NCBI GenBank assembly: GCA_016928495.1
Contig: JAFGKQ010000052.1
Location: forward strand, 1 to 11,321
Length of the DNA stretch: 11,321 bases
Reading direction: 5' to 3'
Origin: Candidatus Fermentibacterales bacterium
Lineage (GTDB): Bacteria; Fermentibacterota; Fermentibacteria; Fermentibacterales; JAFGKQ01
In this document: piece after piece, positions 1 to 11,321 of the stretch
How positions within the stretch are numbered: the stretch's first letter is position 1
How the letters are laid out: every line of letters begins with the position of its first letter
Made by a program: the position numbers and the translations under genes
The notes under the pieces: model-generated
Seen by the model: only the letters and a program-made list of their open reading frames with translations
Database searches by the model: none
What the model was told of the DNA's origin: nothing

Positions 1-1
1 T

Positions 2-574
2 CCGTCCGGGAGCCCAGTCTACCTTGCCTGCTACGGCAGCGACGAGCTGCTGGTCCTGGACGCCGGCGCGGCGCCTTCCGTGCTCGATACCATCGCGGTG
101 GGCCGCGGCCCATGGGGCGTCTGCTGCCCGGGGAGCGGTGAGCAAGTCTACGTGACCAACAGACTGGACGGGACTGTGACTGTCGTGGACGCCGGGGACG
201 GGGCGATCGGCGCGACCCTCGATGCCGGAAGCGACCCGAAGGCCATCTGCTCCACCGCCGACGGTTCCGCTGTCTGGGTAGGCGACTACCTCGGGAGCCG
301 GGTCTACGTGATCGATGTCGCAACGCACGAGGTCGTCTCTTCGTTCGCAGCCGCAGGAGGGCCGACGGAGCTGCTTGCCCTGCCCAACGGCGAGCTCGCC
401 TGCGTTACCTGCTACACGGACGATGCCATCGGCATCCTCGGTGTGCTGGAGCAGGAGCTCCTCGGAACGATGGAGGCCGGCATCAGGCCGTTCGGTCTCT
501 GCTCGACGCCGCCGGGGGACATGCTGTTCGTCACGAGCTCACTCGGGTCGGAAGTCCTCGTGTTCGGGTACTGA
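2..574 (+). CDS. YVTN-type beta-propeller repeat protein, 5' end outside window
   Basis: The frame is open from the first bases of the window, and repeat-like sequence precedes the GTG at 80, so the gene is cut at its 5' end rather than starting there. The visible 190 residues hold about four blade-like repeats of roughly 40 residues. Each has a V-Y-V-[TA]-x-x-x-x-[DG]-x-[VL]-x-V-[LVI]-D core, for example VYLACYGSDELLVLD, VYVTNRLDGTVTVVDAG and VYVIDVATHEVV. These match the YVTN family of seven-bladed propellers, common in surface and exported proteins and used for binding rather than catalysis. The protein ends in a last strand, EVLVFGY, at the TGA, as propellers often do. Any signal peptide would lie upstream of the window, so location is unknown. 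The next gene is a convergent tRNA 25 bp away. The fold call is firm; the ligand and role cannot be seen. Confidence 0.85.
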   Translation, partial: PSGSPVYLACYGSDELLVLDAGAAPSVLDTIAVGRGPWGVCCPGSGEQVYVTNRLDGTVTVVDAGDGAIGATLDAGSDPKAICSTADGSAVWVGDYLGSRVYVIDVATHEVVSSFAAAGGPTELLALPNGELACVTCYTDDAIGILGVLEQELLGTMEAGIRPFGLCSTPPGDMLFVTSSLGSEVLVFGY

Positions 575-599
575 GGCAGAGCAGGTCGGATGGAAGGAC

Positions 600-696
600 T
601 GGCGGGAACGTGTGGGAATCGAACCCACCCAGGGTGGTTTGAGCACCCGACGCCGGGTTTGAAGCCCGGGAGGGACACCAGTCCCCTTCCGCTCCC
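600..696 (-). tRNA. selC: tRNA-Sec (anticodon UCA)
   Basis: Read on the minus strand, this 97-nt sequence folds as a bacterial selenocysteine tRNA. It has an 8-position acceptor arm (GGGAGCGG against ACGUUCCC, with a G-U and a terminal G-A), a 6-bp D stem with a 4-nt loop (GGGGAC-UGGU-GUCCCU), and an anticodon stem CCGGG/CCCGG. The loop CUUCAAA places anticodon UCA at 662-660. A long variable arm (GGGUG/CACCC) follows, then a T arm GUGGG-UUCGAUU-CCCAC. Discriminator G and an encoded CCA finish the 3' end, as in Escherichia coli selC. The extended acceptor and D stems, long variable arm and UCA anticodon are diagnostic of tRNA-Sec and exclude tRNA-Ser. Its role is to carry serine, which is converted to selenocysteine and delivered to UGA codons by SelB. 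No selA, selB or selD is adjacent, so it is a stand-alone gene. Confidence 0.95.
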
Positions 697-708
697 GCAC
701 AGTGTGGA

Positions 709-737
709 GACATCTGGCTCACGAGCCACGGTGTCAA
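709..737 (-). promoter_or_regulatory. candidate promoter of tRNA-Sec
   Basis: The minus strand has a perfect TTGACA at 737-732. Seventeen bases on is GATGTC (714-709), a weak -10. A start near 702 would leave a leader of about six bases before the tRNA. The 17-base spacer contains a small inverted repeat, GGCTC-AC-GAGCC on the plus strand (716-727). The -35 and the geometry are good; the -10 match is poor. Confidence 0.45.
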
Positions 738-766
738 GAGGCCAGTGCGCCAAGGAGCGCTCGACA

Positions 767-803
767 ACCCGGATTGCGTCCGGGTGCTCTCATGGGATAG
801 ATT
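767..803 (+). promoter_or_regulatory. candidate promoter and inverted repeat upstream of the HEAT-repeat gene
   Basis: A perfect inverted repeat, ACCCGGA-ttgcg-TCCGGGT (767-785), overlaps a possible -35 TTGCGT (774-779). A possible -10 TAGATT (798-803) follows after 18 bases. The start would fall near 810, giving a leader of about 37 bases before the TTG at 847. Both hexamers are imperfect, so this is a weak prediction. The repeat could be an operator or a transcribed hairpin. Confidence 0.3.
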
Positions 804-834
804 CGTACATTGCAGCCACATTGTCTTCCCGCTC

Positions 835-840
835 GGGAGG
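835..840 (+). promoter_or_regulatory. ribosome binding site fixing a TTG start at 847
   Basis: GGGAGG lies six bases upstream of TTG 847. No comparable Shine-Dalgarno sequence precedes the ATG at 745, which sits inside the presumed promoter region. The same GGGAGG-N6-TTG layout occurs at lepA (10745-10759) in this window, supporting TTG as the true start. Confidence 0.75.
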
Positions 841-846
841 GACTGT

Positions 847-3477
847 TTGGCCGAGGAGACGACAGCCGAACGGCTCGCAGAGAGGCTCGTCCAGGCTCTA
901 GCCAACGCCAGCGACGAGAGCGCCAGGAGAGGCATGCTCTCCCGCAGGATGGCGGAGCTCGACCCGGCTTCGATCTCCAGCCTCCTGGCCTTCGCGGACG
1001 ATGCTGTCCGGAAGAGGGCCGAGATGGGCCAGCTCTTCCTGTACCTTCTCGAGCTTCCCACCCTCGAGTCGGAGCTTCCCGAGGGCCTCTGGCGCCAGAC
1101 GCGGGAGCTCGTCCTGAAAGACCGGCCGCCTCTGGACGACACCCTGACACGCTTCGGGAAGCTCTCTCCCGGTGAGCGCCCGTTCGCCAGGGCCAAGATC
1201 TCTCTGCTTCTCGAGATCCAGTTCCTCCTGATCCAGGAGGAGCAGGATCAGTCCTCTCCCATACTCCAGGCAACGGCCTCCACGGCCGCGCTCAGGGTCC
1301 TGAAGTCCGTCCAGCCCGGCAGCACGAAGCTCGAGGTCGAGACCACGGGCTACCCGGTCAGCAGCAGGAGGGTTCTCGCGGAGATCCTCTCCGAGCTCGA
1401 CTTCCTCGAGGTTGGCGAGAGCATGTGGGAGTTCAGGCTGAACGACTCCATATTGCCCAACCTGTCCTCTGGCGGCAACATGTCCTCCCGCAGGGCGGCG
1501 GGGGCGACCATGTCCCAGGCAATGGCCAACAGACTCGCTGAGAACCTGGTGAAGAGGTTCGGGTTCATCGTCAGGTCGATAGGCATGTACCCTCCCGGGC
1601 ACCCGGCCATCCAGCCTTCCGTCGATTCCTTCATGAGCCTGCTCGATCAACTGCTTACCGGCAGCCCGATGGTCACCCTCACGGTCATGGGGGGCGACCT
1701 GATGGTCAACGAGACCCAGATCCGCAAGAAGAGCAGGGCGATCGAGACGTTCGTGAAGGACCTCAACGACCGGAACGTCAACAGCGTCAGCCTGCATCCG
1801 GGGGTCGGCTCCGACGACGTGCTCAGGTTCGCCTCGGTCTTCAACAAGTCTCCGATCTACATCAGGGAGCACGGAGGGATCCAGAAGCTCCTGGAGCGCC
1901 GCGAGGTCGACCACATCACGATAGACCAGTTCCACTACGCTCTCGTCTCGGAGGACGGCACGGTGGTGGGCCAGGCCTCGAGCCCCGAGGAGACAGCCCT
2001 CGAGGACGTGATTTTCGGCGAGCTGGTAGAGAGGCTCGAGAGAGGGGACAGCCTGAGGGACCTCCCCAACGAGAAGGTCGGCGAGGCTCTGAAGAAGGTG
2101 CTTCAGGATGCCGGCTCCGGTGTGGACAGGCAGAGGAACCTGCTCGCGGGCTTCGTCGCGGCTCTCGACCCTTCCATACTCGAGAAGGGCCTTCTCTCGA
2201 GGCGGGATGTTCAGCGGGACATGGCATGGAGCGCGGTCAGGCGGATCATCAAGGCACGACTCAGAGACCTGTCCTCGAAAGACGAGGACGTTCGGCTCGA
2301 GGCCGTCGAGAAGCTCATGGGCTTCGCCCTGATCGCCGTGGAGAGGAACAAGGACAATACCGTCATGCAGCTTCTCGAGGCGGTCACCGAGAAGCTGCGG
2401 GGTGAGGACAGCCCCGACTGCCTCTTCGCTGCCATAAGCGCGACCGGGACTCTTCTCGAGAGGCTCATCTCCAGGGGCAAGCTGGCCTCGGCGGAGATTC
2501 CCGCCAGGATACTCAAGACCCAGGATGGAGCGGTCTCCGAGGAACCGGACATCGCATCGGCCCGCAGAAGGGCTCTGGCCGAGGCAGGCCGGAGGATAGA
2601 CACGCCCGAGGTTGCGGAAGCGCTCCTGCAGAGGCTGCTCTCCCACAACGAGGTCATCGCCAGGGAAGCCGAGATCCTGGCCGCCGTTCTACCGCTCAAG
2701 AACCTGATCGCCCATCTGCTGGACATCTTCCTGGAGCCGGACATCAAGAGGAGGGCAAGGGCCTACAGGATCCTCAAGGCCCTGGGGAACCGGGCGCTGC
2801 CGCAGCTCCATGGAAGGCTGATGAGGCTGCCGCTTCGCTACGAGACCCAGAGAGACCCTGAGACTCTCGCCCTGGTAGACGACGAATGGTATGTCGCGAG
2901 GAACGTCATGGGCATACTCGCGGAGCTCCAGTCCCCCTCCAGCGAGGAGGTGCTGGTGCAGCTCTGCTCCGATCCGGACGAGAGGATCAGGCACAGGTCG
3001 CTCCTGGCTCTGGCAAGCGTCTCCCAGCAGAAGTCCCTGATGCTCTCGCTCCGCATGCTGAACGACAGGTCCGTCGAGGTTGCAAAGGCAGCTCTCGACA
3101 TCGCGGTCAAGGAGGCGAGATTCAAGACCGGCCTCGCCGGGGCGATCATCGAGGCATACCGCAGCCGTCCCGACATGTGGGCCGAGTTCCTCGACGGCAT
3201 CGAGTGGCTGCTGGATAGCGAGGAGGTCAGGGAGTTCCTGGCGTCGAGGTTCGAGGGGGAAGACGCGCTTCCCTTCGGCGATCCCGAGCTCACGGCGCAG
3301 GCGGCGTCCATGCTCGGCGAATGTGGTGGAGAGGCCGAGCTGACGGCCCTGGAGAGCTACATGGCCAGGGTATCGGGTGGAGGGATGCTCAAGCGCAAGA
3401 GCGTTGCCAAGGCCGTCCTCAAGTCTGTCTCGGAAGCTGCAACGCAGATAAGGCAGAGGCTCTCCGGGGCTCCCTGA
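847..3477 (+). CDS. HEAT-repeat protein of unknown function (876 aa)
   Basis: The TTG at 847 is chosen for its GGGAGG site; the frame extends upstream to an ATG at 745 that has no ribosome binding site. Residues 1-220 are alpha-helical and rich in Leu, Glu and Arg. Residues about 222-365 form a distinct module beginning with a helix (MSQAMANRLAENLVKRFG) and the motif YPPGHP at 248-253. A short beta segment (TVMGGDLMVNE) and a helix leading to SVSLHPGVGSDDVLRF follow. From memory, this YPPGHP module recurs in uncharacterised bacterial HEAT and HD-type signalling proteins. From about residue 540 to the end there are degenerate HEAT/ARM-type helix pairs, the clearest at 709-726 (DPDERIRHRSLLALASVS). 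No signal peptide or membrane segment is visible, so the protein is probably a cytoplasmic scaffold. It has no operon partner, standing between a divergent tRNA and a convergent phosphorylase gene. No catalytic motif was recognised. Confidence 0.85.
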   Translation: MAEETTAERLAERLVQALANASDESARRGMLSRRMAELDPASISSLLAFADDAVRKRAEMGQLFLYLLELPTLESELPEGLWRQTRELVLKDRPPLDDTLTRFGKLSPGERPFARAKISLLLEIQFLLIQEEQDQSSPILQATASTAALRVLKSVQPGSTKLEVETTGYPVSSRRVLAEILSELDFLEVGESMWEFRLNDSILPNLSSGGNMSSRRAAGATMSQAMANRLAENLVKRFGFIVRSIGMYPPGHPAIQPSVDSFMSLLDQLLTGSPMVTLTVMGGDLMVNETQIRKKSRAIETFVKDLNDRNVNSVSLHPGVGSDDVLRFASVFNKSPIYIREHGGIQKLLERREVDHITIDQFHYALVSEDGTVVGQASSPEETALEDVIFGELVERLERGDSLRDLPNEKVGEALKKVLQDAGSGVDRQRNLLAGFVAALDPSILEKGLLSRRDVQRDMAWSAVRRIIKARLRDLSSKDEDVRLEAVEKLMGFALIAVERNKDNTVMQLLEAVTEKLRGEDSPDCLFAAISATGTLLERLISRGKLASAEIPARILKTQDGAVSEEPDIASARRRALAEAGRRIDTPEVAEALLQRLLSHNEVIAREAEILAAVLPLKNLIAHLLDIFLEPDIKRRARAYRILKALGNRALPQLHGRLMRLPLRYETQRDPETLALVDDEWYVARNVMGILAELQSPSSEEVLVQLCSDPDERIRHRSLLALASVSQQKSLMLSLRMLNDRSVEVAKAALDIAVKEARFKTGLAGAIIEAYRSRPDMWAEFLDGIEWLLDSEEVREFLASRFEGEDALPFGDPELTAQAASMLGECGGEAELTALESYMARVSGGGMLKRKSVAKAVLKSVSEAATQIRQRLSGAP

Positions 3478-3486
3478 CCGCCCCGG
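3464..3486. terminator. hairpin between convergent genes, possible bidirectional terminator
   Basis: CCGGGGC (3464-3470) and GCCCCGG (3480-3486) form a perfect 7-bp stem around a 9-base loop that holds the HEAT gene's TGA. It sits exactly where the two convergent genes meet. No T-tract follows on either strand, so it is at best an atypical terminator. Confidence 0.3.
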
Positions 3487-3495
3487 GCTCCGACG

Positions 3496-6051
3496 CTATT
3501 CCCACCAGGTGATCAGGCCCGGCTCGATGAGGGTGCCGAAGACGGGGTGTGCCGGGAGTACCCTTATCGTGTATCCCATCCGCCCCGATTCCGTGCACTG
3601 GATGCCTCCGTCGAAGACGAGCTCCGAGTCCTTCCCGGTTTCCGCGTGATCGAGTCTGGCTACGTGGGCTTCCCGTATCCCGCCCGTCTCGGACTCGCGG
3701 CCGAAGTGGACCTCCACGGCAAGGTCCTCCGGTCCGAGCCCCGGAGCAGCCAGCCTCGCTCTTACCGGAAGCTCGGACCCGAAAGCCATGGTGTTTCCCT
3801 CCTCGGACGGCGACTCCACCTCGAGGATCCTGAGGTCGCCCCAGGCCATGCGCAGCTTCTGCTTCCAGTCGGCAAGCTCCCTGGCTGCCTTCATGTCCTG
3901 CCCCGTCAGCAGGTCCAGGCGGCGGAAGGAGGGAAGGTAGAAGCGCTGGAAGTACTCGGCGAGCATTCTGTTCATGTTGAACCTCGGGCAGTGCCTCGTC
4001 ATCGAGTTCACCATCAGGGCGAGCCACTTCCTCGGAAGGCCGTCCCTGCCCCTGTCATAGAAGAGCGGCGCTATCTCGTTCTCGAGCCTGTCGTAGAGAG
4101 CGCGGGCCTCGATGCCGTCCCTCAGCTCCGGGTCGTCGTAGGTCTCCCCCCTGCCGATCGCCCAGCCCGCGTCGGGGCTGTAGGCCTCGTCCCACCAGCC
4201 GTCGAGGATGCTGCAGTTCAGCACCCCGTTGAGTGACGCCTTCATGCCGCTCGTTCCGCTGGCTTCCATCGGCCTGACAGGGGTGTTGAGCCAGAGGTCC
4301 ACTCCCTGAACGAGGTGCCTCGCCATGTCCATGTTGTAGTCCTCGAGGTAGACGATCTTCCCGTAGAAACCCTCCCGCAGGCAGAGATGGACGATCCTGC
4401 TGATGAGCTCCTTCCCCTCCGAGTCGTGAGGGTGGGCCTTGCCTGCGAAAACGAGCTGGACTGGATGGCCGGGGTGGTTCAGAAGGCTGGACAACCTCTC
4501 CTCGTCGTCCAGCAGGAGGTTGGCGCGCTTGTATGCGGCCACTCTCCTGGCAAAGCCGATGGTGAGGACCTCGGGGTTGAGCACCGGGACCTCGTCCATT
4601 CTGGGCAGATGGACGCCCCACCGTGCTATCTGCCTGCTCCAGCGCTCTCTCGCGAAGGTGACCATCCGCTCCCTCAGACGCTCGTGGCTGTTCCAGAGCT
4701 CGGGCCCCGGTATCTTCTCCAGCCTCGTCCAGAAGGCCTCCTGAAGAGGGGTCGAGGGCCATCTCGGCCCGACGTACCTGTCGAGGAGCCGCGACATCTC
4801 GTCCGAGATCCAGGAGTCCGCGTGGACTCCGTTCGTCACGTGCTCGATGGGGATGTCGTCCTCGGGAAGCCCGGGCCAGACATCCATCCACATCTTCCTC
4901 GCCTCTCTGCCGTGGAGCTCGCTCACTCCGTTCCTCCAGTCGGTCATCCTGAGAGCGAACGCCGTCATGGAGAAGCAATGGTTGCCGTTGGTGCGTCCGA
5001 GCGCAAGGAACTGGTCCTGCGTCAGCCCGAGCTCCTCTCTCACCGGGCCAAGGTACTCCTCGACCAGGGAGGGATCGAACTCCTCGTTGCCGGCCGGCAC
5101 GGGAGTGTGAGTGGTGAAGACACAGCTCGCCGCTACTATTCCCCTGGCCTCTTCGAACGAGAGGCCACGCCTGGTGAGCTGGCCTATCCTCTCGAGTATC
5201 AGGAAGGCGGAGTGCCCTTCGTTGATGTGAGTGATCGAGGGATCCCGGCCGATCGCGCTGAGGGCCCTCACTCCGCCCATGCCAAGCAGTATCTCCTGTC
5301 TGATCCTCATCCTGCGGTCGCCGCCGTAGAGCTGCCCCGTGATCTCGCGGTCCTCCGGATCGTTGGTCTCTATGTTGGTGTCGAGCAGGTAGAGCGAGGT
5401 GCGACCTATCCTCACCTCCCAGACCTGGGCTCCCACCTGGCCTGCGCCCATGGGCACCATCACGCGCACCGGGTCGCCCGACTCGTCCAGGACGGGGTTG
5501 ACCGGCGTGTTGGAGTAGTCGTTGACGAAGTACTTCTCCTGCTGCCATCCGTCGCTGTTGAGGTATTGCTTGAAGTAACCCTGCCTGTAGAGCAGAGAGA
5601 CGCCGACCATGGGCAGACCAAGCTCGCTCACGCTCTTGAGGGTGTCACCGGCCAGTATGCCGAGCCCTCCCGAGTAGATGGGGAGGCTCTCGTGGACGCC
5701 GAACTCGGCGGAAAAGGTCGCGATGAGGAAGTCCTCGGGAAGCTTCTCTTTGCCGGCAACGCTGTCATACCAGGTCGGCCTCTCCAGGTAGTCGCTCAGA
5801 TCCTGCCGTACCTGTCTGAGCCTGGCCAGGAAGACTGCGTCCGCCGCCAGCTCGGCGAGCCTGTTCTGACTCACCCTTCCCAGCAACAGGACGGCGTTGT
5901 GATCGGTCTCGTTCCATATCTCCGGGTCTATGTAGCGGAAGAGGTCCACAGCTCCGGGGCTCCAGGTCCACCACAGGTTGTAGGCGACCTCCTGGAGCGG
6001 AATCAGCTCCTCCGGAATGGATGGAACGACTCTGACGAACCTGGTTTTCAA
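3496..6051 (-). CDS. glgP: alpha-glucan phosphorylase, GT35 family (851 aa)
   Basis: The enzyme phosphorolyses alpha-1,4-glucans such as glycogen or maltodextrin to glucose-1-phosphate, using pyridoxal phosphate, in the cytoplasm. Residues about 9-100 match the N-terminal DUF3417 module of the short alpha-glucan phosphorylase subfamily (AYNLWWTWSPGA at 23-34). A glucan-phosphorylase segment with ESLPIYSGGLGILAGDTLKS follows at 121-140. The PLP-lysine motif EASGTSGMK puts the cofactor lysine at K604, followed by LNGVLNCSILDGWWDE. The C-terminal 100 residues are the beta-rich tail typical of this subfamily, ending GLITWWE. Length fits the family's roughly 850 residues. The start is TTG at 6051, because AGGAG precedes it by seven bases and homologues begin near KTRFVRVVPSIP; the upstream ATG at 6222 adds 57 unrelated residues. 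No other glycogen gene is adjacent, and whether glycogen or maltodextrin is the substrate cannot be told. Confidence 0.95.
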   Translation of the reverse strand: MKTRFVRVVPSIPEELIPLQEVAYNLWWTWSPGAVDLFRYIDPEIWNETDHNAVLLLGRVSQNRLAELAADAVFLARLRQVRQDLSDYLERPTWYDSVAGKEKLPEDFLIATFSAEFGVHESLPIYSGGLGILAGDTLKSVSELGLPMVGVSLLYRQGYFKQYLNSDGWQQEKYFVNDYSNTPVNPVLDESGDPVRVMVPMGAGQVGAQVWEVRIGRTSLYLLDTNIETNDPEDREITGQLYGGDRRMRIRQEILLGMGGVRALSAIGRDPSITHINEGHSAFLILERIGQLTRRGLSFEEARGIVAASCVFTTHTPVPAGNEEFDPSLVEEYLGPVREELGLTQDQFLALGRTNGNHCFSMTAFALRMTDWRNGVSELHGREARKMWMDVWPGLPEDDIPIEHVTNGVHADSWISDEMSRLLDRYVGPRWPSTPLQEAFWTRLEKIPGPELWNSHERLRERMVTFARERWSRQIARWGVHLPRMDEVPVLNPEVLTIGFARRVAAYKRANLLLDDEERLSSLLNHPGHPVQLVFAGKAHPHDSEGKELISRIVHLCLREGFYGKIVYLEDYNMDMARHLVQGVDLWLNTPVRPMEASGTSGMKASLNGVLNCSILDGWWDEAYSPDAGWAIGRGETYDDPELRDGIEARALYDRLENEIAPLFYDRGRDGLPRKWLALMVNSMTRHCPRFNMNRMLAEYFQRFYLPSFRRLDLLTGQDMKAARELADWKQKLRMAWGDLRILEVESPSEEGNTMAFGSELPVRARLAAPGLGPEDLAVEVHFGRESETGGIREAHVARLDHAETGKDSELVFDGGIQCTESGRMGYTIRVLPAHPVFGTLIEPGLITWWE

Positions 6052-6058
6052 TTGATGT

Positions 6059-6063
6059 CTCCT
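6059..6063 (-). promoter_or_regulatory. ribosome binding site fixing the TTG start of the phosphorylase
   Basis: On the minus strand, AGGAG is followed after seven bases by TTG (6051-6049). This places the start where family similarity begins and rules out the ATG at 6222, which would run the gene through the divergent intergenic region and past the protease start. Confidence 0.75.
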
Positions 6064-6118
6064 GACTTCCTCGTGTTCATGTCCCCGGAGGGCACGATGA
6101 TCTACTCGCCACCCGGCA

Positions 6119-6149
6119 AACATAAGGAACCCGGTATCGGTGCGGTCAA
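6119..6149 (-). promoter_or_regulatory. weak candidate promoter of the phosphorylase
   Basis: The minus strand has TTGACC at 6149-6144 and TATGTT at 6124-6119. The 19-base spacer is longer than ideal. The region is only 159 bp and shared with the divergent protease gene, so a promoter is expected here, but the match is marginal. Confidence 0.25.
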
Positions 6150-6195
6150 CGACGCCCTGCCCGGGCCAATGGTGCCGGAGGGGCATGGAGGTGCT

Positions 6196-6201
6196 TATAC
6201 T
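6196..6201 (+). promoter_or_regulatory. candidate -10 element very close to the protease start codon
   Basis: TATACT ends nine bases before the ATG at 6211. A transcript from it would begin at or a few bases before the start codon, giving a leaderless or nearly leaderless mRNA. No -35 is visible 17 bases upstream. The nearest Shine-Dalgarno-like GGAGG ends about 20 bases before the ATG, which is too far to serve it. Confidence 0.35.
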
Positions 6202-6210
6202 TGCGCTGAT

Positions 6211-8349
6211 ATGTCCGGTCATGCCGCTTCCCGTGTTCCTTCCCGGTGCCTTCCGGGGGTCCCGGCTATTGCGCTGCTTGCCCTCCTGGCTGCCCTGCCG
6301 CGAGGGGACGCGCTGTGCGGCAGCATGACGCTGGACCTGTCGTTCGACGCCGCAGCCGTGGTCGTGGCCCCGATCTCCGGGGGGCCTGCCTGTCTCGTAG
6401 AGCTCGCCGGCTGCTTCCAGGCCGGAGCGCCGGGGGAACCCCTTCTGCCGGCCAGATCACTGGCGCTGGTGCTTCCCGCCGGAGCCAGCAACGTGTGCTT
6501 CGGTGTATCCCCGGTATCGGCGAGAGAGATCGGGAGGGGCATCACCGTGGGGCCCGCCGGGTCCCTCGCACCCATAGGCGCCGCACCCGACCCCTGGTCC
6601 GGAGGTGCCGGCGAGTGCTCCCGGTACGACGAGCTCGTGTACGGGAGTCTCGAGCCCTATCCCGGGGACCTCCTCATCGCGAGCCACGTGGGCAACTGCG
6701 GCGGTTTCACGATAGCCTCACTCGTCGTCCAGCCGTGGATCTACCTGCCTGCATCCGGAGACCTCTCTCTCTGCGAGCGCCTGACAGTCACTGTCGACTG
6801 GCGCGAAGGACATGCGCCGGCCCTCACCGAGCACCAGGTGGAGCTCGGCAGCACGCTCATCCGGTCCTGGATCGACAACCCCGGCGACCTGGACAGGTTC
6901 GCTCCCGTCCCGTTGCCTTCGGGCTCATCGAGGGCCCCTGTCGACTACCTCGTCGTGTGTGACAGCGCCTTCGCATCCGCCCTCGTCCCGCTCGCGCTCT
7001 TCCACGAGCAGCAGGGCATGGCGTCCGAGATCGTCACGATCCAGGAGATCGTCGAGTCGAGCCCCGGCCGGGATGATGCGGAGAAGCTGCGCAGCTACCT
7101 CGCCGGCCGTTTCCTGAGCGATGGCCTTCGCTACGCGCTGCTCGCCGGAGACGAGAAGGTGCTTCCGGTTCGCTACGTCCACACGGAGTGCGACGGATGG
7201 GTAGACACCGCGCCCGCGGAGCTCTACTTCTGCGATCTGGACGGAGACTGGGACGCCAGCGGGGACGGGGTTTTCGGGCAGCCCGAGGACAGCATAGACT
7301 TCTACTCCGACATCAGCGTCGGCAGGGCACTCTTCTCGACGCTCGAGGACTGCGAGACCTTCGTTGCGAAGACCCTCGGCTACTCCTCCTCTCCTGCTCC
7401 GGGGAGCTGGCGGCAGACGGCGGTTCTCTGCGGCAGCATGCTCTTCGCCGAGATCGGGTACCATGCCGGGAAGGTCAACGACTCCATCGCCGTGGCGCTT
7501 CCCGCCGGCTGGGAGATCGTCAAGAGCTACGAGACGGCGGAGGACACGGACGGGAGCGACACCCACATCTCGTACATCTCCGACGGGTCCGGCTGGAACC
7601 ACTACGGCGGGCACGGCAACAACAGAGGCATCTACTGGCACACGGCCCCGCACTCCATGATGACCAACTGGATCGCCGACACCCTGACCAACGGTGAGAG
7701 AAGCGGCATCCACCTCAGCATCGCCTGCAGCCCCGGAGCCTTCCACGACTCCATCTGCTGCGCCGAGGCGCTGCTGCACAACCCCGACGGGGGTGCGGCG
7801 GCAGTGATGTTCAATACCACCTTCGGCTGGGAAGGCTTCTGGCCGGAGATGGGTGTCAGCGAGTGGCTGTGCATCCTGACCACCAGGCAGGTGTTCCGCA
7901 ACCACGCTCCGACGCTCGGTGACGCCTTCACCTCAGCCAGGGACCAGAGGGTCCCCCTGATGCACGGGGGAGCCGACAGGACCTTCCAGGTGATGATGTC
8001 CTGGGCTCTTTTCGGAGACCCGGCGCTCCAGGTCCTCGGAGTGGCCCCGGACGCACCGATCCCTCCTGCTGCCCTCAGGATGGACCCGCCCTGGCCCAAT
8101 CCTGCCGGCAGGGATGCCCCGATCTCCTTCTTCGTGGACTTCAGCAACACTCCGTTCGGCTGCGAGACGGAGATCTCCGTCCTCGACCTGGCCGGGCGGC
8201 TGCTCTGGAGAACCTCCATACAGAACCCCTGCGCCGTAAGGTGGGAGGGGGTCATGCCCGGAGGGCGCAGAGTGCCGGCAGGGGTCTACCTGCTCACCGC
8301 TCGAAGAGGGGATGTCGTGGTTGGCAGGCTGGTGACCATCCTGGACTGA
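6211..8349 (+). CDS. secreted C25-family (gingipain-like) cysteine protease (712 aa)
   Basis: The predicted enzyme is an exported cysteine endopeptidase. Starting at ATG 6211, the first 36 or so residues have a basic-then-hydrophobic stretch (VPAIALLALLAALPRGDA), a Sec-type signal with likely cleavage near GDA/LC. Residues about 37-240 resemble a pro-region. The Peptidase_C25 domain runs from about 244 (VDYLVVCDSAF) to about 610. It contains GDE-x2-LPVRY, a gingipain-like YGGHGN with candidate catalytic H468, and SIACSPGAF with candidate nucleophile C506. Their order and 38-residue spacing fit the His/Cys dyad of gingipains. The last 95 residues (PPWPNPA to VTILD, with a WEGVMPGGRRVPAGVYLL turn) form a FlgD-Ig or type-IX-sorting-like beta-sandwich. 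Such tails mark surface or secreted proteins in FCB-group bacteria. The upstream in-frame ATG at 6169 lacks a ribosome binding site. Substrate specificity is not readable. Confidence 0.88.
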   Translation: MSGHAASRVPSRCLPGVPAIALLALLAALPRGDALCGSMTLDLSFDAAAVVVAPISGGPACLVELAGCFQAGAPGEPLLPARSLALVLPAGASNVCFGVSPVSAREIGRGITVGPAGSLAPIGAAPDPWSGGAGECSRYDELVYGSLEPYPGDLLIASHVGNCGGFTIASLVVQPWIYLPASGDLSLCERLTVTVDWREGHAPALTEHQVELGSTLIRSWIDNPGDLDRFAPVPLPSGSSRAPVDYLVVCDSAFASALVPLALFHEQQGMASEIVTIQEIVESSPGRDDAEKLRSYLAGRFLSDGLRYALLAGDEKVLPVRYVHTECDGWVDTAPAELYFCDLDGDWDASGDGVFGQPEDSIDFYSDISVGRALFSTLEDCETFVAKTLGYSSSPAPGSWRQTAVLCGSMLFAEIGYHAGKVNDSIAVALPAGWEIVKSYETAEDTDGSDTHISYISDGSGWNHYGGHGNNRGIYWHTAPHSMMTNWIADTLTNGERSGIHLSIACSPGAFHDSICCAEALLHNPDGGAAAVMFNTTFGWEGFWPEMGVSEWLCILTTRQVFRNHAPTLGDAFTSARDQRVPLMHGGADRTFQVMMSWALFGDPALQVLGVAPDAPIPPAALRMDPPWPNPAGRDAPISFFVDFSNTPFGCETEISVLDLAGRLLWRTSIQNPCAVRWEGVMPGGRRVPAGVYLLTARRGDVVVGRLVTILD

Positions 8350-8355
8350 TCCTCC

Positions 8356-8370
8356 GCGCCAATCTGGCGC
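8356..8370. repeat. inverted repeat A upstream of the hsp20 operon
   Basis: GCGCCA-atc-TGGCGC is a perfect 6-bp dyad six bases after the protease stop codon. It lies about 92 bases upstream of the sigma-54 -24 element, within the range where enhancer-binding proteins sit. It could equally be a hairpin ending the protease mRNA, but no T-tract follows. Confidence 0.5.
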
Positions 8371-8371
8371 A

Positions 8372-8388
8372 GAGCTTCCCCCAAGCTC
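8372..8388. repeat. inverted repeat B upstream of the hsp20 operon
   Basis: GAGCTT-ccccc-AAGCTC is a second perfect 6-bp dyad, one base downstream of repeat A and about 74 bases upstream of the -24 element. Its arm sequence differs from repeat A, so the two are not copies of one operator. Confidence 0.45.
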
Positions 8389-8461
8389 AGTCGCTCCTTC
8401 CCCTTGAAATCGTAATGTATTGCAGAAAAGCCTCTTGAGCCAGGCATGCCCTGCCCGCAAC

Positions 8462-8477
8462 TGGCATGACCTTTGCT
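8462..8477 (+). promoter_or_regulatory. sigma-54 (RpoN) promoter of the hsp20 operon
   Basis: TGGCATGACCTTTGCT matches the sigma-54 consensus TGGCAYR-N4-TTGCW throughout, with the invariant GG (8463-8464) and GC (8475-8476) exactly ten bases apart. Transcription would start near 8488, giving a leader of about 44 bases before ATG 8532. Such promoters need an ATP-dependent enhancer-binding activator, so the hsp20 pair would be switched by a signal rather than by sigma-32. No CIRCE (TTAGCACTC dyad) is present. Confidence 0.75.
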
Positions 8478-8531
8478 GTGCTGATCTGCGGATAGCCCGG
8501 AATGGGCCAAGCGGGAACTGGAGGTTCGACG

Positions 8532-8969
8532 ATGATCCGATACCTGAAGAGGCCCGGCTGGCCTTCGGATTCCTGGCCATGGATCAGGGCCATGCAGGGC
8601 GAGCTGGGAAGGCTGATGGATGGATTGGCCCCTTCGGAGGCCTATCCGCCCGTCAACGTCTGGAGCAACGGCGACGAGGTGCTGGTCACCGCGGAGATCC
8701 CCGGGGTAGATCCCGAGCATCTCGATATCTCCATTCAGTCCGGCTCGCTTACCCTCAAGGGCGAAAGGAGCTGCCCGGAGCACTCCTCTCCCGACTGCGT
8801 CTGTCATCGCAGGGAGAGCGAGGCTGCCTGTTTCGCCAGGAGCATCTCCCTTCCCTACGAGGTCGAGGCGGACAGGGCCAGGGCAACCTGCGCCGACGGA
8901 GTTCTGGAGCTCCATCTTCCGAGGGCGGAGCAGAGCAGGCCGAGACGCATAGCCGTGGAGTCGTCATGA
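8532..8969 (+). CDS. small heat-shock protein, Hsp20/alpha-crystallin family, cysteine-rich (145 aa)
   Basis: This is an ATP-independent holdase chaperone that binds unfolding proteins and assembles into large oligomers in the cytoplasm. The alpha-crystallin domain spans about residues 38-131, with PPVNVWSNGDEVLVTAEIPGV, LDISIQSGSLTLKGER and the signature ADGVLELHLPR. The C-terminal oligomerisation motif is I-A-V at 140-142. The N-terminal arm is short and aromatic (W10, W15, W17). Unusually, there are five cysteines (81, 89, 91, 100, 120). Three of them lie in the normally charged loop as CPEH-x4-CVCH (81-92), which could bind a metal or respond to redox state. TGGAGG at 8519-8524, seven bases before ATG 8532, fixes the start. 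It is the first gene of the sigma-54 transcript and is followed by a second, divergent hsp20. The symbols hspA and ibpA would be guesses and are left out. Confidence 0.93.
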   Translation: MIRYLKRPGWPSDSWPWIRAMQGELGRLMDGLAPSEAYPPVNVWSNGDEVLVTAEIPGVDPEHLDISIQSGSLTLKGERSCPEHSSPDCVCHRRESEAACFARSISLPYEVEADRARATCADGVLELHLPRAEQSRPRRIAVESS

Positions 8970-9025
8970 CAGCAGGGATGCCAGGAGCAGCCTGCTCCTG
9001 GATGGAAAGGTGGCTTGCCTCATGA
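8966..9025 (+). CDS. possible 19-residue coupling peptide between the two hsp20 genes
   Basis: The frame reads MTAGMPGAACSWMERWLAS. Its ATG overlaps the stop of the first hsp20 (ATGA at 8966-8969), and its TGA overlaps the ATG of the second (ATGA at 9022-9025). A Shine-Dalgarno-like TGGAG lies five bases upstream of its start. Translating ribosomes could thus pass from gene to gene by reinitiation, and would run through the strong hairpin at 8981-9001. A 60-base open frame is easily found by chance in this GC-rich DNA, and the peptide resembles nothing I recognise. Only the double overlap makes it notable. Confidence 0.25.
   Translation: MTAGMPGAACSWMERWLAS
8981..9001. repeat. perfect 10-bp inverted repeat between the hsp20 genes
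   Basis: The arms CCAGGAGCAG (8981-8990) and CTGCTCCTGG (8992-9001) flank one central C. In RNA this would form a 9-bp stem with a three-base loop. No T-tract follows, so it is not a standard terminator. It may be an mRNA-processing or stability element setting the ratio of the two chaperones, or a protein-binding site. Confidence 0.7.
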
Positions 9026-9429
9026 GCGCCAGGAAGAAGCAGGAGAGACTGGAGGGGGCGGGCGAGCAGGTCGAGGAGAGGGCGGAGCTGACCAGGGATC
9101 TGCCCGTCTTCGTGCCCGCAACGAGCATCTACGAGCTACCCGACTCCCTCGTCGTGTACTGTGACGTACCCGGTGTCTCCAGGGGCGACCTGGACGTCTC
9201 CCTCGAGAAGGGCCTCCTCACGATCACAGGCTACCAGAGAGCCAGGGAGCCGGAAGGCTACCAGTTGCTTCACAGAGGCTATGGCACCGGGGTCTTCCGC
9301 CGATCCTTCACCGTGGTCGAGGACATCGACCAGGATGGCATAACGGCCTCACTCAGGAACGGTGTCCTGGAGCTGGTGCTGCCCAGATCCAGGCAGCCGG
9401 GGCCCATGAAGATCGAGGTCGGCCAGTAG
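9022..9429 (+). CDS. small heat-shock protein, Hsp20/alpha-crystallin family (135 aa)
   Basis: This is a second holdase of the same family but clearly not a recent duplicate, since only core family positions agree. Residues 1-27 form a charged, probably helical arm (KKQERLEGAGEQVEERAEL). The alpha-crystallin domain runs from about 33 to 122 (ATSIYELPDSLVVYCDVPGV, LDVSLEKGLLTITGYQ, FRRSFTVVEDID, RNGVLELVLPR). The C-terminal I-x-V motif (IEV) is at 131-133. It has only one cysteine (47), unlike its upstream partner. ATG 9022 is preferred, with GGAAAGG ending 11 bases before it; a GTG at 9010 lies on top of that site. It belongs to the same transcript as the first hsp20, so mixed oligomers are plausible. 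A rho-independent terminator follows at 9457. Confidence 0.93.
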   Translation: MSARKKQERLEGAGEQVEERAELTRDLPVFVPATSIYELPDSLVVYCDVPGVSRGDLDVSLEKGLLTITGYQRAREPEGYQLLHRGYGTGVFRRSFTVVEDIDQDGITASLRNGVLELVLPRSRQPGPMKIEVGQ

Positions 9430-9456
9430 CAGCGGGCACCGGAGATCATCGGGATC

Positions 9457-9487
9457 GGGCCCGGGGGCATCGCTCCCCGGGCCTTTT
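9457..9487 (+). terminator. rho-independent terminator of the hsp20 operon
   Basis: GGCCCGGGG (9458-9466) pairs with CCCCGGGCC (9475-9483), extended by a G-U on the loop side, around a loop of eight bases. TTTT (9484-9487) follows immediately. It lies 28 bases after the stop of the second hsp20 and separates it from the cyclase gene. Confidence 0.85.
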
Positions 9488-9507
9488 CTCATCCTCGCTC
9501 CGGGGCT

Positions 9508-9513
9508 TATGAT
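9508..9513 (+). promoter_or_regulatory. candidate -10 element of the cyclase gene
   Basis: TATGAT differs from TATAAT at one base and sits just after the hsp20 terminator. Transcription would start near 9520, about ten bases before the AGGAGG site. No good -35 is visible 17 bases upstream (CTTTTC region), so the call is weak. Confidence 0.3.
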
Positions 9514-9530
9514 GACTCCGTGATGAGTGA

Positions 9531-9536
9531 AGGAGG
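9531..9536 (+). promoter_or_regulatory. ribosome binding site supporting a TTG start at 9541
   Basis: AGGAGG lies four bases before TTG 9541. It is inside the frame if the gene is started at GTG 9520 or ATG 9523, neither of which has a Shine-Dalgarno sequence. The spacing is slightly short, so ATG 9523 remains possible. Confidence 0.55.
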
Positions 9537-9540
9537 AGCC

Positions 9541-10158
9541 TTGAGCGACCCTGGTCCTCTCTTCGCCCGGCTCGGCAGCATGCTCGGCAGCGGAGAGCCG
9601 ATCGAGACGATCAGCACGGACCTGTGGAGCAGGTTCGGCGCCGAGCTGGCCGTGATGGTGCTCGACTGCTGCGGCTTCACGAGAATCACGAGGAAGCTGG
9701 GGATCGAGAGGTACCTTGCAGGGCTGTTCGAAGCCCGCGAGCTCGTCATGCCCGTCCTGAAGAGGCATGGGTGCGTTGGCTGCAGGACGGAGGCCGACAA
9801 TATCTCCGCAGCCTTCCCGGACAGCCCGTCGGCTCTCGAAGCGGCCCTGGCGTCCAGGATTCTGGTTCGCGGCCGCTCCATCGGGCGTGAGAACGGGGAG
9901 GATCTCAGGGTTTCCATAGGCATCGGGTTCGGGAAGGTCCTCTATTGTCCGGTCTGCGGGGCCTTCGGGGATGAGATGAACCTGGCGTCCAAGCTGGGTG
10001 AGGACATAGCCGGCCCGGACGAGATACTGCTCACGCCCGCGGCCTGGTCCGCCCTTCCGGCGGGGAGACGGGAGCTGTTCACCAGAGCGTCGGCAGAGGT
10101 CTCGGGGATCGGGATGGACTACTACAGGCTGGATCCCCGCGACTGCTCCTCCCCGTAG
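9541..10158 (+). CDS. single-domain class III adenylate/guanylate cyclase (205 aa)
   Basis: The predicted enzyme makes a cyclic nucleotide (cAMP or cGMP) from ATP or GTP. The class III catalytic fold fills most of the protein. VMVLDCCGFTRIT (38-50) carries metal ligand D42; CRTEADNISAAF (81-92) carries the second metal aspartate D86. VSIGIGFGKVL (124-134) and FGDEMNLASKLGEDIAGPDEILLT (142-165) complete the active site, with N147. K151 stands where many family members have the transition-state arginine; I believe NLASKLGED is usual for this subgroup. A CPVC pair at 136-139 sits just before the FGDEMN motif. There is no sensor, HAMP or membrane segment, and only a 35-residue N-terminal extension, so it is a short soluble enzyme controlled by an unseen partner or constitutive. 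Activity and nucleotide choice are not certain. Its 3' end overlaps the convergent acyltransferase gene by 37 bp. Confidence 0.85.
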   Translation: MSDPGPLFARLGSMLGSGEPIETISTDLWSRFGAELAVMVLDCCGFTRITRKLGIERYLAGLFEARELVMPVLKRHGCVGCRTEADNISAAFPDSPSALEAALASRILVRGRSIGRENGEDLRVSIGIGFGKVLYCPVCGAFGDEMNLASKLGEDIAGPDEILLTPAAWSALPAGRRELFTRASAEVSGIGMDYYRLDPRDCSSP

Positions 10159-10625
10159 CCCTCCCGGAACCGCAGCAGCCGGGCCGGGTTGCCCGCGACT
10201 ATCGCGCCCGGGGGCACGTCCTTCGTGACCACCGCGCCCGCACCCACTATCGCGTCTCTGCCAATGGCGACGGGGAGGATCGTGGCGTTGGAGCCGATGC
10301 TCGCGCCGTCCCCGACTCTCGTCGGCTTCCACTTGCTCCTGTCCGGCTGTGGGGGGTGCGTGTCGTTGATGAACATCACGCCGTGGCCCACGAAGACATC
10401 GCTGCCGATCTCGACCATGTCGCAGACGAAGGTGTGGCTCTGGATCCTCGTCCTGTCGCCTATCACCGCTCCGCCCTGGATCTCGACGAAGCAGCCCACC
10501 ATGCTGTCCCTGCCGATCCGGCAGTCATAGATGTTCACGAAGTTCCAGATCTTCGTGTTCTCTCCGATGACGGTGTTCCTCACGAGCTGAGTAGGGTTCC
10601 ATCCGGCGGGCGCGCTCTTCGTCAT
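10122..10625 (-). CDS. left-handed beta-helix (hexapeptide-repeat) acyltransferase, WbpD/WlbB-like (167 aa)
   Basis: Tandem hexapeptide repeats run from about residue 15 to 150, for example TVIGEN, RIGRDS, AVIGDR, VEIGSD, AIGRDA and AIVGAG. They form a left-handed beta-helix that acts as a trimer and transfers an acetyl group from acetyl-CoA. The stretch WNFVNIYDC...FVEIQGG...IQSHTFVCDMVEIG...VGHGVMFIND (27-88) strongly resembles UDP-2-acetamido-3-amino-glucuronate N-acetyltransferases of the WbpD/WlbB type, used for O-antigen or other surface-glycan sugars. The end GNPARLLR is typical of the superfamily. ATG 10625 is chosen because AAAGG lies eight bases before it; the ATG at 10631 has only two bases after the same site, and the ATG at 10754 would overlap the lepA control region. 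No other sugar-biosynthesis gene is in view, so the exact substrate is inferred. Confidence 0.88.
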   Translation of the reverse strand: MTKSAPAGWNPTQLVRNTVIGENTKIWNFVNIYDCRIGRDSMVGCFVEIQGGAVIGDRTRIQSHTFVCDMVEIGSDVFVGHGVMFINDTHPPQPDRSKWKPTRVGDGASIGSNATILPVAIGRDAIVGAGAVVTKDVPPGAIVAGNPARLLRFREGYGEEQSRGSSL

Positions 10626-10756
10626 CTCCATGACCTTTCCCCACGGGTTGCGTTCTGTGCTCGCCACGGCTCGAAGCCGAATGATGCTCGACGAGGGTCT
10701 CACGGTACAGCCCCCGGGCTTTTTTGCATATTCCATGATCCGACGGGAGGGCACTC
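10626..10756. promoter_or_regulatory. divergent control region between the acyltransferase and lepA
   Basis: This 131-bp region holds a small inverted repeat CGGCT-cga-AGCCG (10667-10679) and the only AT-rich stretch of the gap, CTTTTTTGCATATTCCAT (10719-10736). CATATT (10727-10732) could be the lepA -10, giving a start near 10739, but the matching -35 position (GGTACA) is poor. A promoter for the minus-strand gene was not identified. Confidence 0.3.
10745..10750 (+). promoter_or_regulatory. ribosome binding site fixing the TTG start of lepA
   Basis: GGGAGG lies six bases upstream of TTG 10757, and LepA homology ([16 protein letters not shown]) begins five codons later. No alternative ATG fits, since the first in-frame ATG is codon 26, beyond the P-loop. 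Confidence 0.85.
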
Positions 10757-11321
10757 TTGACTGATCCGGCCATACGCAACTTCTGCATCATCGCCCACAT
10801 CGATCACGGGAAGTCCACCCTGGCGGACCGCATGCTCCAGAGAACCCATTCGGTCGAGGACAGGGAGTTCCACGACCAGATGCTGGACTCGATGGACATC
10901 GAGAGGGAGAGGGGCATCACCATCAAGTCCTCCGCCGTCACCATGGACTACACTACACGTGACGGCAGGCCTTTCGAGCTCAACCTGATAGACACTCCTG
11001 GGCACGTGGACTTCACCTACGAGGTTTCCAGAGCTCTGGCCTCCTGCGAGGGGGCTCTGCTGGTAATCGACGCCGCGCAGGGTGTTGAGGCGCAGACCCT
11101 CGCGAACCTCTACAAGGCCATGGAGCACGATCTGGTGATCATCCCCGTGGTGAACAAGATCGACCTTCCCTCCGCGAACGTCGAGGAGACGCTGGCGGAG
11201 ATAGAGCACGAGCTGGCCCTCGACCCTGCGGAATCGGTGCTGGTCTCCGCCAAGTCGGGGCAGGGGGTCGAGGACCTGCTCGAGGCGATAGTGCAGCGTG
11301 TCCCCCCGCCTCGCGTCAGCA
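10757..11321 (+). CDS. lepA: translation elongation factor 4 (LepA), 3' end outside window
   Basis: LepA is a ribosome-associated GTPase related to EF-G that acts in translation and ribosome function. The visible 188 codons cover the G domain. The P-loop is AHIDHGKST at 13-21, the switch I RGIT at 52-55, and switch [10 protein letters not shown] at 79-86. The NKID base-recognition motif is at 133-136 and SAK at 164-166. [14 protein letters not shown] and [14 protein letters not shown] are the LepA versions of these regions and separate it from TypA/BipA and EF-G. All GTPase motifs are intact. The start is TTG with an ideal GGGAGG site, and the gene runs off the window. It is divergent from the acyltransferase gene, and any downstream partner (often lepB in other bacteria) is out of view. 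Confidence 0.96.

Follow-up and report, generated by a model that had tools for sequence, protein, structure and literature searches.

How transcription of small heat-shock genes is controlled is the question raised by a pair of adjacent hsp20 genes in an 11,321-nt contig of a Candidatus Fermentibacterales bacterium (JAFGKQ010000052.1, positions 1 to 11,321; hereafter the window). An initial annotation, made from the letters of the window, proposed that the pair is driven by a sigma-54 promoter. The comparison with related genomes described here suggests, with a probability of about 0.86, that the hsp20 pair belongs to a core chaperone regulon extending across the order, which would be controlled by a sigma-54 promoter and a shared enhancer instead of HrcA/CIRCE or sigma-32.

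The hsp20 pair and its predicted promoter

The two ORFs that had been described as small heat-shock genes both contain the alpha-crystallin domain (PF00011, HSP20). The first (8532-8969, + strand) encodes 145 aa (E = 1.3e-16), and the second (9022-9429, + strand) encodes 135 aa (E = 1.5e-15) and forms an operon with the first, judging by position. An in-frame ATG for the first gene is also present at 8502, but the ribosome-binding site (GGAGG, 8519-8523) is better positioned for the ATG at 8532. The pair is closed by an intrinsic-terminator-like hairpin followed by TTTCTC (9457-9484, + strand), found in a pattern scan as a consensus match only. The ORF after the pair (9538-10158, + strand) appears by eye to contain an adenylate/guanylate cyclase-type domain, and gave no Pfam match. 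Elsewhere in the window, a selenocysteine tRNA gene was detected at 600-696 on the minus strand (ARAGORN; Rfam RF01852, 74 bits), and the organism therefore probably makes selenoproteins.

Upstream of the first hsp20 gene, TGGCATGACCTTTGCT (8462-8477, + strand) has the layout of a sigma-54 -24/-12 element, with GG at 8463-8464 and GC at 8475-8476 separated by exactly 10 nt, the geometry claimed in the initial annotation. The fit to the extended consensus claimed there was also borne out, with one mismatch from TGGCACG-N4-TTGCW, and TGGCATGACCTTTGCT is the only site in the window scoring 12 or more on the sigma-54 matrix. The element had been placed 44 bp before the first hsp20 start; this is the distance from the predicted transcript start (~8488) to the ATG at 8532, and the distance from the end of the element to that ATG is 54 nt. 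The predicted 5′ untranslated leader is thus ~44 nt long (8488-8531, + strand), its start being deduced from the -12 position and the element geometry. No sigma-70-type site was detected by pattern scan upstream of the window hsp20 genes; a weak sigma-70 promoter is still conceivable there, although the scan found none. Because chance alone should produce about one match to TGGCACG-N4-TTGCW with up to two mismatches in a window of such composition, TGGCATGACCTTTGCT alone is weak evidence; the motif by itself is not decisive, and we take its recurrence in relatives to be so.

Recurrence of the element before chaperone genes

Among the oriented loci of the order, a -24/-12 element was present upstream of hsp20 in 23/23 and upstream of groES in 30/30. 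In the first scan it was also found upstream of dnaK in 19 of 20 loci; in the 20th, hsp20 and dnaK form an operon whose own site lies before hsp20. By comparison, the region upstream of grpE, inside the dnaK operon, contained a match in 1/30 cases, and random 450-bp windows from the same genomes contained a sigma-54 match in 17/2160. The core positions (T, G, G, A and T, G, C) were invariant in 72 sites, with the commonest flanking base averaging 39-41%; this invariance is partly circular, as the 72 sites were selected with a matrix favouring GG/GC, and more weight belongs to the presence counts. Conservation of GG and GC in relatives amid drifting flanks, which the initial annotation had named as a check on its proposal, was seen in all hsp20 promoters identified across the order, for which the 23/23 loci are again the stronger measure.

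The arrangement of the dnaK genes varies. In two genomes, hsp20 heads an operon with dnaK, grpE and dnaJ and is preceded by the sigma-54 element (G006, L224:11885-14957; G005, L225:13170-16204); in other genomes the element lies directly before dnaK.

A palindromic putative enhancer

Side-by-side reading of the upstream regions revealed a palindrome, GYGYCA-N3-TGRCRC, common to hsp20, groES and dnaK across the order. In the window it occurs as a perfect copy, GCGCCAATCTGGCGC (8356-8370), the sole exact match, 91 bp upstream of the -24 element; the initial annotation had mentioned the promoter only and missed it. Among the 71 sets with enough sequence, the palindrome was present with 0-2 mismatches in all 71 and with 0-1 in 64, compared with 11/1420 shuffles at 0-1 mismatches, and it was seen in 29 of 30 groES loci. 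Its distance from the element was 84-86 bp for dnaK, 95-108 bp for groES and mostly 88-112 bp for hsp20 (range 80-160). We infer that the palindrome is the binding site of an activator, and as a conserved putative activator site it would supply the upstream enhancer of a sigma-54-dependent promoter.

The element, the spacing and a half-palindrome were then combined in a compound search of 42 genomes with a reversed control. The search returned 74 rows, corresponding to 70 distinct sites, versus 5 rows for the control, and 67 of the 70 sites were placed by position before groES, dnaK or hsp20. The other three (G008:C121, G009:C7 and G034:C262) do not precede these chaperone genes and look like chance matches.

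Within the window's own genome, the compound search gave exactly three matches. One precedes groESL (contig C78) and one the window hsp20 pair; the last lies before a third hsp20 gene, which is truncated where contig C206 ends. Upstream of this third gene is a palindrome of the dnaK type, GTGCCACTATTGCAC, with the spacing seen for dnaK; because of this, and because hsp20-dnaK-grpE operons occur in related genomes, the gene probably opens the dnaK operon.

The sigma-54 pattern with one mismatch was little enriched in this genome (22 matches vs 16 in the reversed control). Exact sites numbered six including TGGCATGACCTTTGCT, among them TGGCATGACACTTGCT, ~100 bp upstream of groES-groEL, and one upstream of a type IV pilin gene adjoining a PilR-like activator. 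Type IV pilin genes are classical sigma-54 targets, and sites lie directly upstream of two of them (L006:1501-1516, G000:C191; L011:1501-1516, G000:C95, minus strand), one near the PilR-like activator. Another exact site (L007:680-695, G000:C307) precedes a gene whose small zinc-ribbon product begins with MPTYEYKC and, by eye, resembles FmdB.

Presence of rpoN and absence of recognised HrcA and RpoH

The initial annotation had also asked for rpoN and its activators in the genome, and both were found. RpoN is represented by a C-terminal fragment at a contig edge (C218) that matches PF04552 and contains a clear RpoN box. At least six enhancer-binding activators of the Sigma54_activat type are encoded, with the domain confirmed in six. 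Together with the element and the palindrome, the rpoN fragment supports the initial call of a sigma-54 promoter, whose usage is predicted.

The hrcA gene on which HrcA/CIRCE control depends was found in 0/42 genomes, with control genomes giving matches. Likewise, a sigma factor of the RpoH type (TIGR02392), as needed for sigma-32 control, exceeded the family cut-off in 0/42 genomes, with two controls passing; there is still room for a diverged heat-shock sigma factor in the order.

A candidate activator

Contig C206 contains a candidate activator gene (L061:1726-3084) 1.5 kb from the third hsp20 gene. Full-length orthologs of the encoded protein, with 55-65% identity, occur in 38/42 genomes, compared with only ~40% for other activators. 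The protein has the AAA+ domain (PF00158, Sigma54_activat), with a GAFTGA loop, and a Fis-type HTH (HTH_8) of an enhancer-binding protein, and the loop reads GA[FY]TGA in the orthologs displayed. In its receiver-like domain, which matches PF00072 weakly, the phospho-Asp is replaced by a conserved Ser in 26/26 aligned orthologs, whereas the other activators compared have the canonical Asp. The candidate thus lacks the phosphate-accepting receiver of an NtrC-type response regulator.

The C206-type gene is often located near dnaK. It shares a contig with grpE in nine genomes, 8-14 kb apart, with uvrA and an rmlD-like gene as conserved neighbours; in many genomes (e.g. G003) it lies off the dnaK contig. 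No enhancer or sigma-54 site was found upstream of the activator gene itself, and autoregulation was rejected on this ground. All three chaperone promoters are kept in G001, where the C206 type is the only activator at E 1e-75, which favours it as the regulator. We regard the C206-type activator as the best candidate for the regulator of the chaperone regulon, the link being circumstantial. This assignment is the least certain step, because an activator with a canonical receiver (C80 type) neighbours the C206-type one in 28 genomes, 4.3-5.4 kb away.

Sigma-54 promoters stay off until an activator powered by ATP acts on them, which gives tight on/off control. In the mechanism that we propose, the hsp20 pair would be transcribed from the promoter at 8462-8477. 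An AAA+ enhancer-binding protein would bind the palindrome at 8356-8370, loop to the closed sigma-54 polymerase and open the complex, and the same enhancer and promoter pair would drive groESL and dnaK-grpE-dnaJ. The activator would be the C206-type protein found across the order, with its receiver devoid of the phosphate-accepting Asp, and may be controlled by folding load (e.g. through chaperone titration or a binding partner) and not by a histidine kinase. The initial annotation had expected RpoN control to reflect some other stress or developmental cue. That part was not upheld: the same module also precedes groESL and dnaK-grpE-dnaJ, and therefore looks like a core protein-folding stress regulon. 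The sites are presumably in use. The full proposal, in which the order swapped repressor or sigma-32 heat-shock control for a sigma-54 switch, and one phosphorylation-independent activator reads folding load directly and induces hsp20, groESL and dnaK-grpE-dnaJ through the shared enhancer, is tentative, and we put it at somewhat under even odds.

Alternative readings

The same sigma-54 regulon could instead answer to another activator, such as the C80 type, through a two-component phosphorelay as in HsfA/HsfB of Myxococcus xanthus, an activator reportedly of the NtrC type. The intact receiver of the C80-type protein and its position beside the C206 type speak for this possibility. Against it, G001 has all three promoters, yet a search of it at E 1e-75 did not find the C80 type (a threshold effect may contribute), and in the window's genome it lies among genes for a glycosyltransferase, a carbamoyltransferase and an HD-domain response regulator, with no chaperone nearby. 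We consider this assignment rather unlikely, though the most serious competitor of the C206 type.

It is improbable that the palindrome acts as a repressor operator with a CIRCE-like role, with the sigma-54 element being secondary or serving a general activator. The palindrome does resemble many operators, and activation and repression look alike in a comparison of this kind. Nevertheless, it lies mostly 84-112 bp before the -24 element, an enhancer position from which a repressor would not block the polymerase; the spacing is nearly fixed for each gene, and HrcA is absent.

RNA thermometers are common for proteobacterial hsp20 genes, and one in the leader might control the window pair. The leader gave no Rfam match to an RNA thermometer, and its folding was not unusual, being no better than that of shuffles (z ~0), which makes such control very improbable here. 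Finally, TGGCATGACCTTTGCT might be a GG-N10-GC string that arose by chance in a genome rich in G and C, and hsp20 might be under an unseen sigma-70 promoter. This reading would fit the chance expectation for the window alone but is refuted by the comparative data, as the element is conserved before three chaperone operons of the order and paired with the palindrome, and no sigma-70-type site was seen before hsp20.

Related modules beyond the order

Three hsp20 pairs outside the order, two of them from Kiritimatiellae-type genomes, begin with sigma-54-like elements. Pairs of this sort, arranged in the same gene order, were noted with such elements upstream in genomes of the Kiritimatiellae type (L103:2947-2962, L104 and L105), and in L103 a near-perfect copy of the palindrome, GCGTCAAAATGACTC, lies upstream of hsp20. 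Since these pairs share the elements, and one of them the palindrome, the module may be older than the order or may have been transferred. The closest activators in these genomes have ordinary receivers.

Relation to known systems

Sigma-54 at heat-shock genes is already known or predicted. The phage shock operon is a sigma-54 stress operon whose activator, PspF, is not controlled by phosphorylation; it resembles the proposed regulon in these respects, and differs in responding to membrane stress, in its genes, and in that PspF has no receiver-like domain.

In E. coli, the small heat-shock gene ibpB likewise has a sigma-54-dependent promoter, beside sigma-32 control (Kuczynska-Wisnik 2001, cited in PMC4316790 and PMC4370416). 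That case concerns one gene, whereas here hsp20, groESL and dnaK are involved, no promoter type other than sigma-54 was found, and no RpoH passes the cut-off. The hrcA-grpE-dnaK operon of Chlamydia, with tandem sigma-66/sigma-54 promoters (PMC8762339), also has dnaK behind a sigma-54 promoter, but it keeps HrcA and a housekeeping promoter, whereas in the order HrcA is absent and a dedicated putative enhancer is common to several chaperone operons. Myxococcus xanthus offers a heat-shock gene, lonD, under HsfA/HsfB control (Ueki and Inouye 2002, as cited in PMC9548883). There too an NtrC-type activator drives the gene; that system is a two-component phosphorelay with a protease gene as target, whereas the candidate described here lacks the phospho-Asp and would target the main chaperones. 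No GroE, Hsp or DnaK gene is mentioned in the main text of a paper on the Desulfovibrio regulome (PMC4641369).

Closest in gene content is an in silico study of 2025, in which GroEL, GroES, IbpA, GrpE, DnaJ and DnaK were enriched among predicted sigma-54 targets in Planctomycetota and Bacteroidota, and grpE and groES of B. thetaiotaomicron were stated to be sigma-54-dependent (PMC12316311). The chaperone genes are the same; that work offers enrichment statistics over 16 phyla, and its available text describes no common enhancer or activator for these genes. A literature search, which covered few subscription papers, returned no description of a shared enhancer, an order-wide confinement to core chaperones, the absence of both HrcA and RpoH, or a pseudo-receiver activator.

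Throughout the order, HrcA and RpoH appear to have given way to a core chaperone regulon built around one dedicated putative enhancer, as far as the genomes compared can tell. The analysis yields a precise putative enhancer sequence and a candidate folding-stress sensor, and adds a comparative footprint to the statistical prediction made in 2025 for other phyla (PMC12316311). If true, the use of sigma-54 for the main chaperones without HrcA or a recognised RpoH would add another fundamental layout to those by which bacteria organise their heat-shock response.
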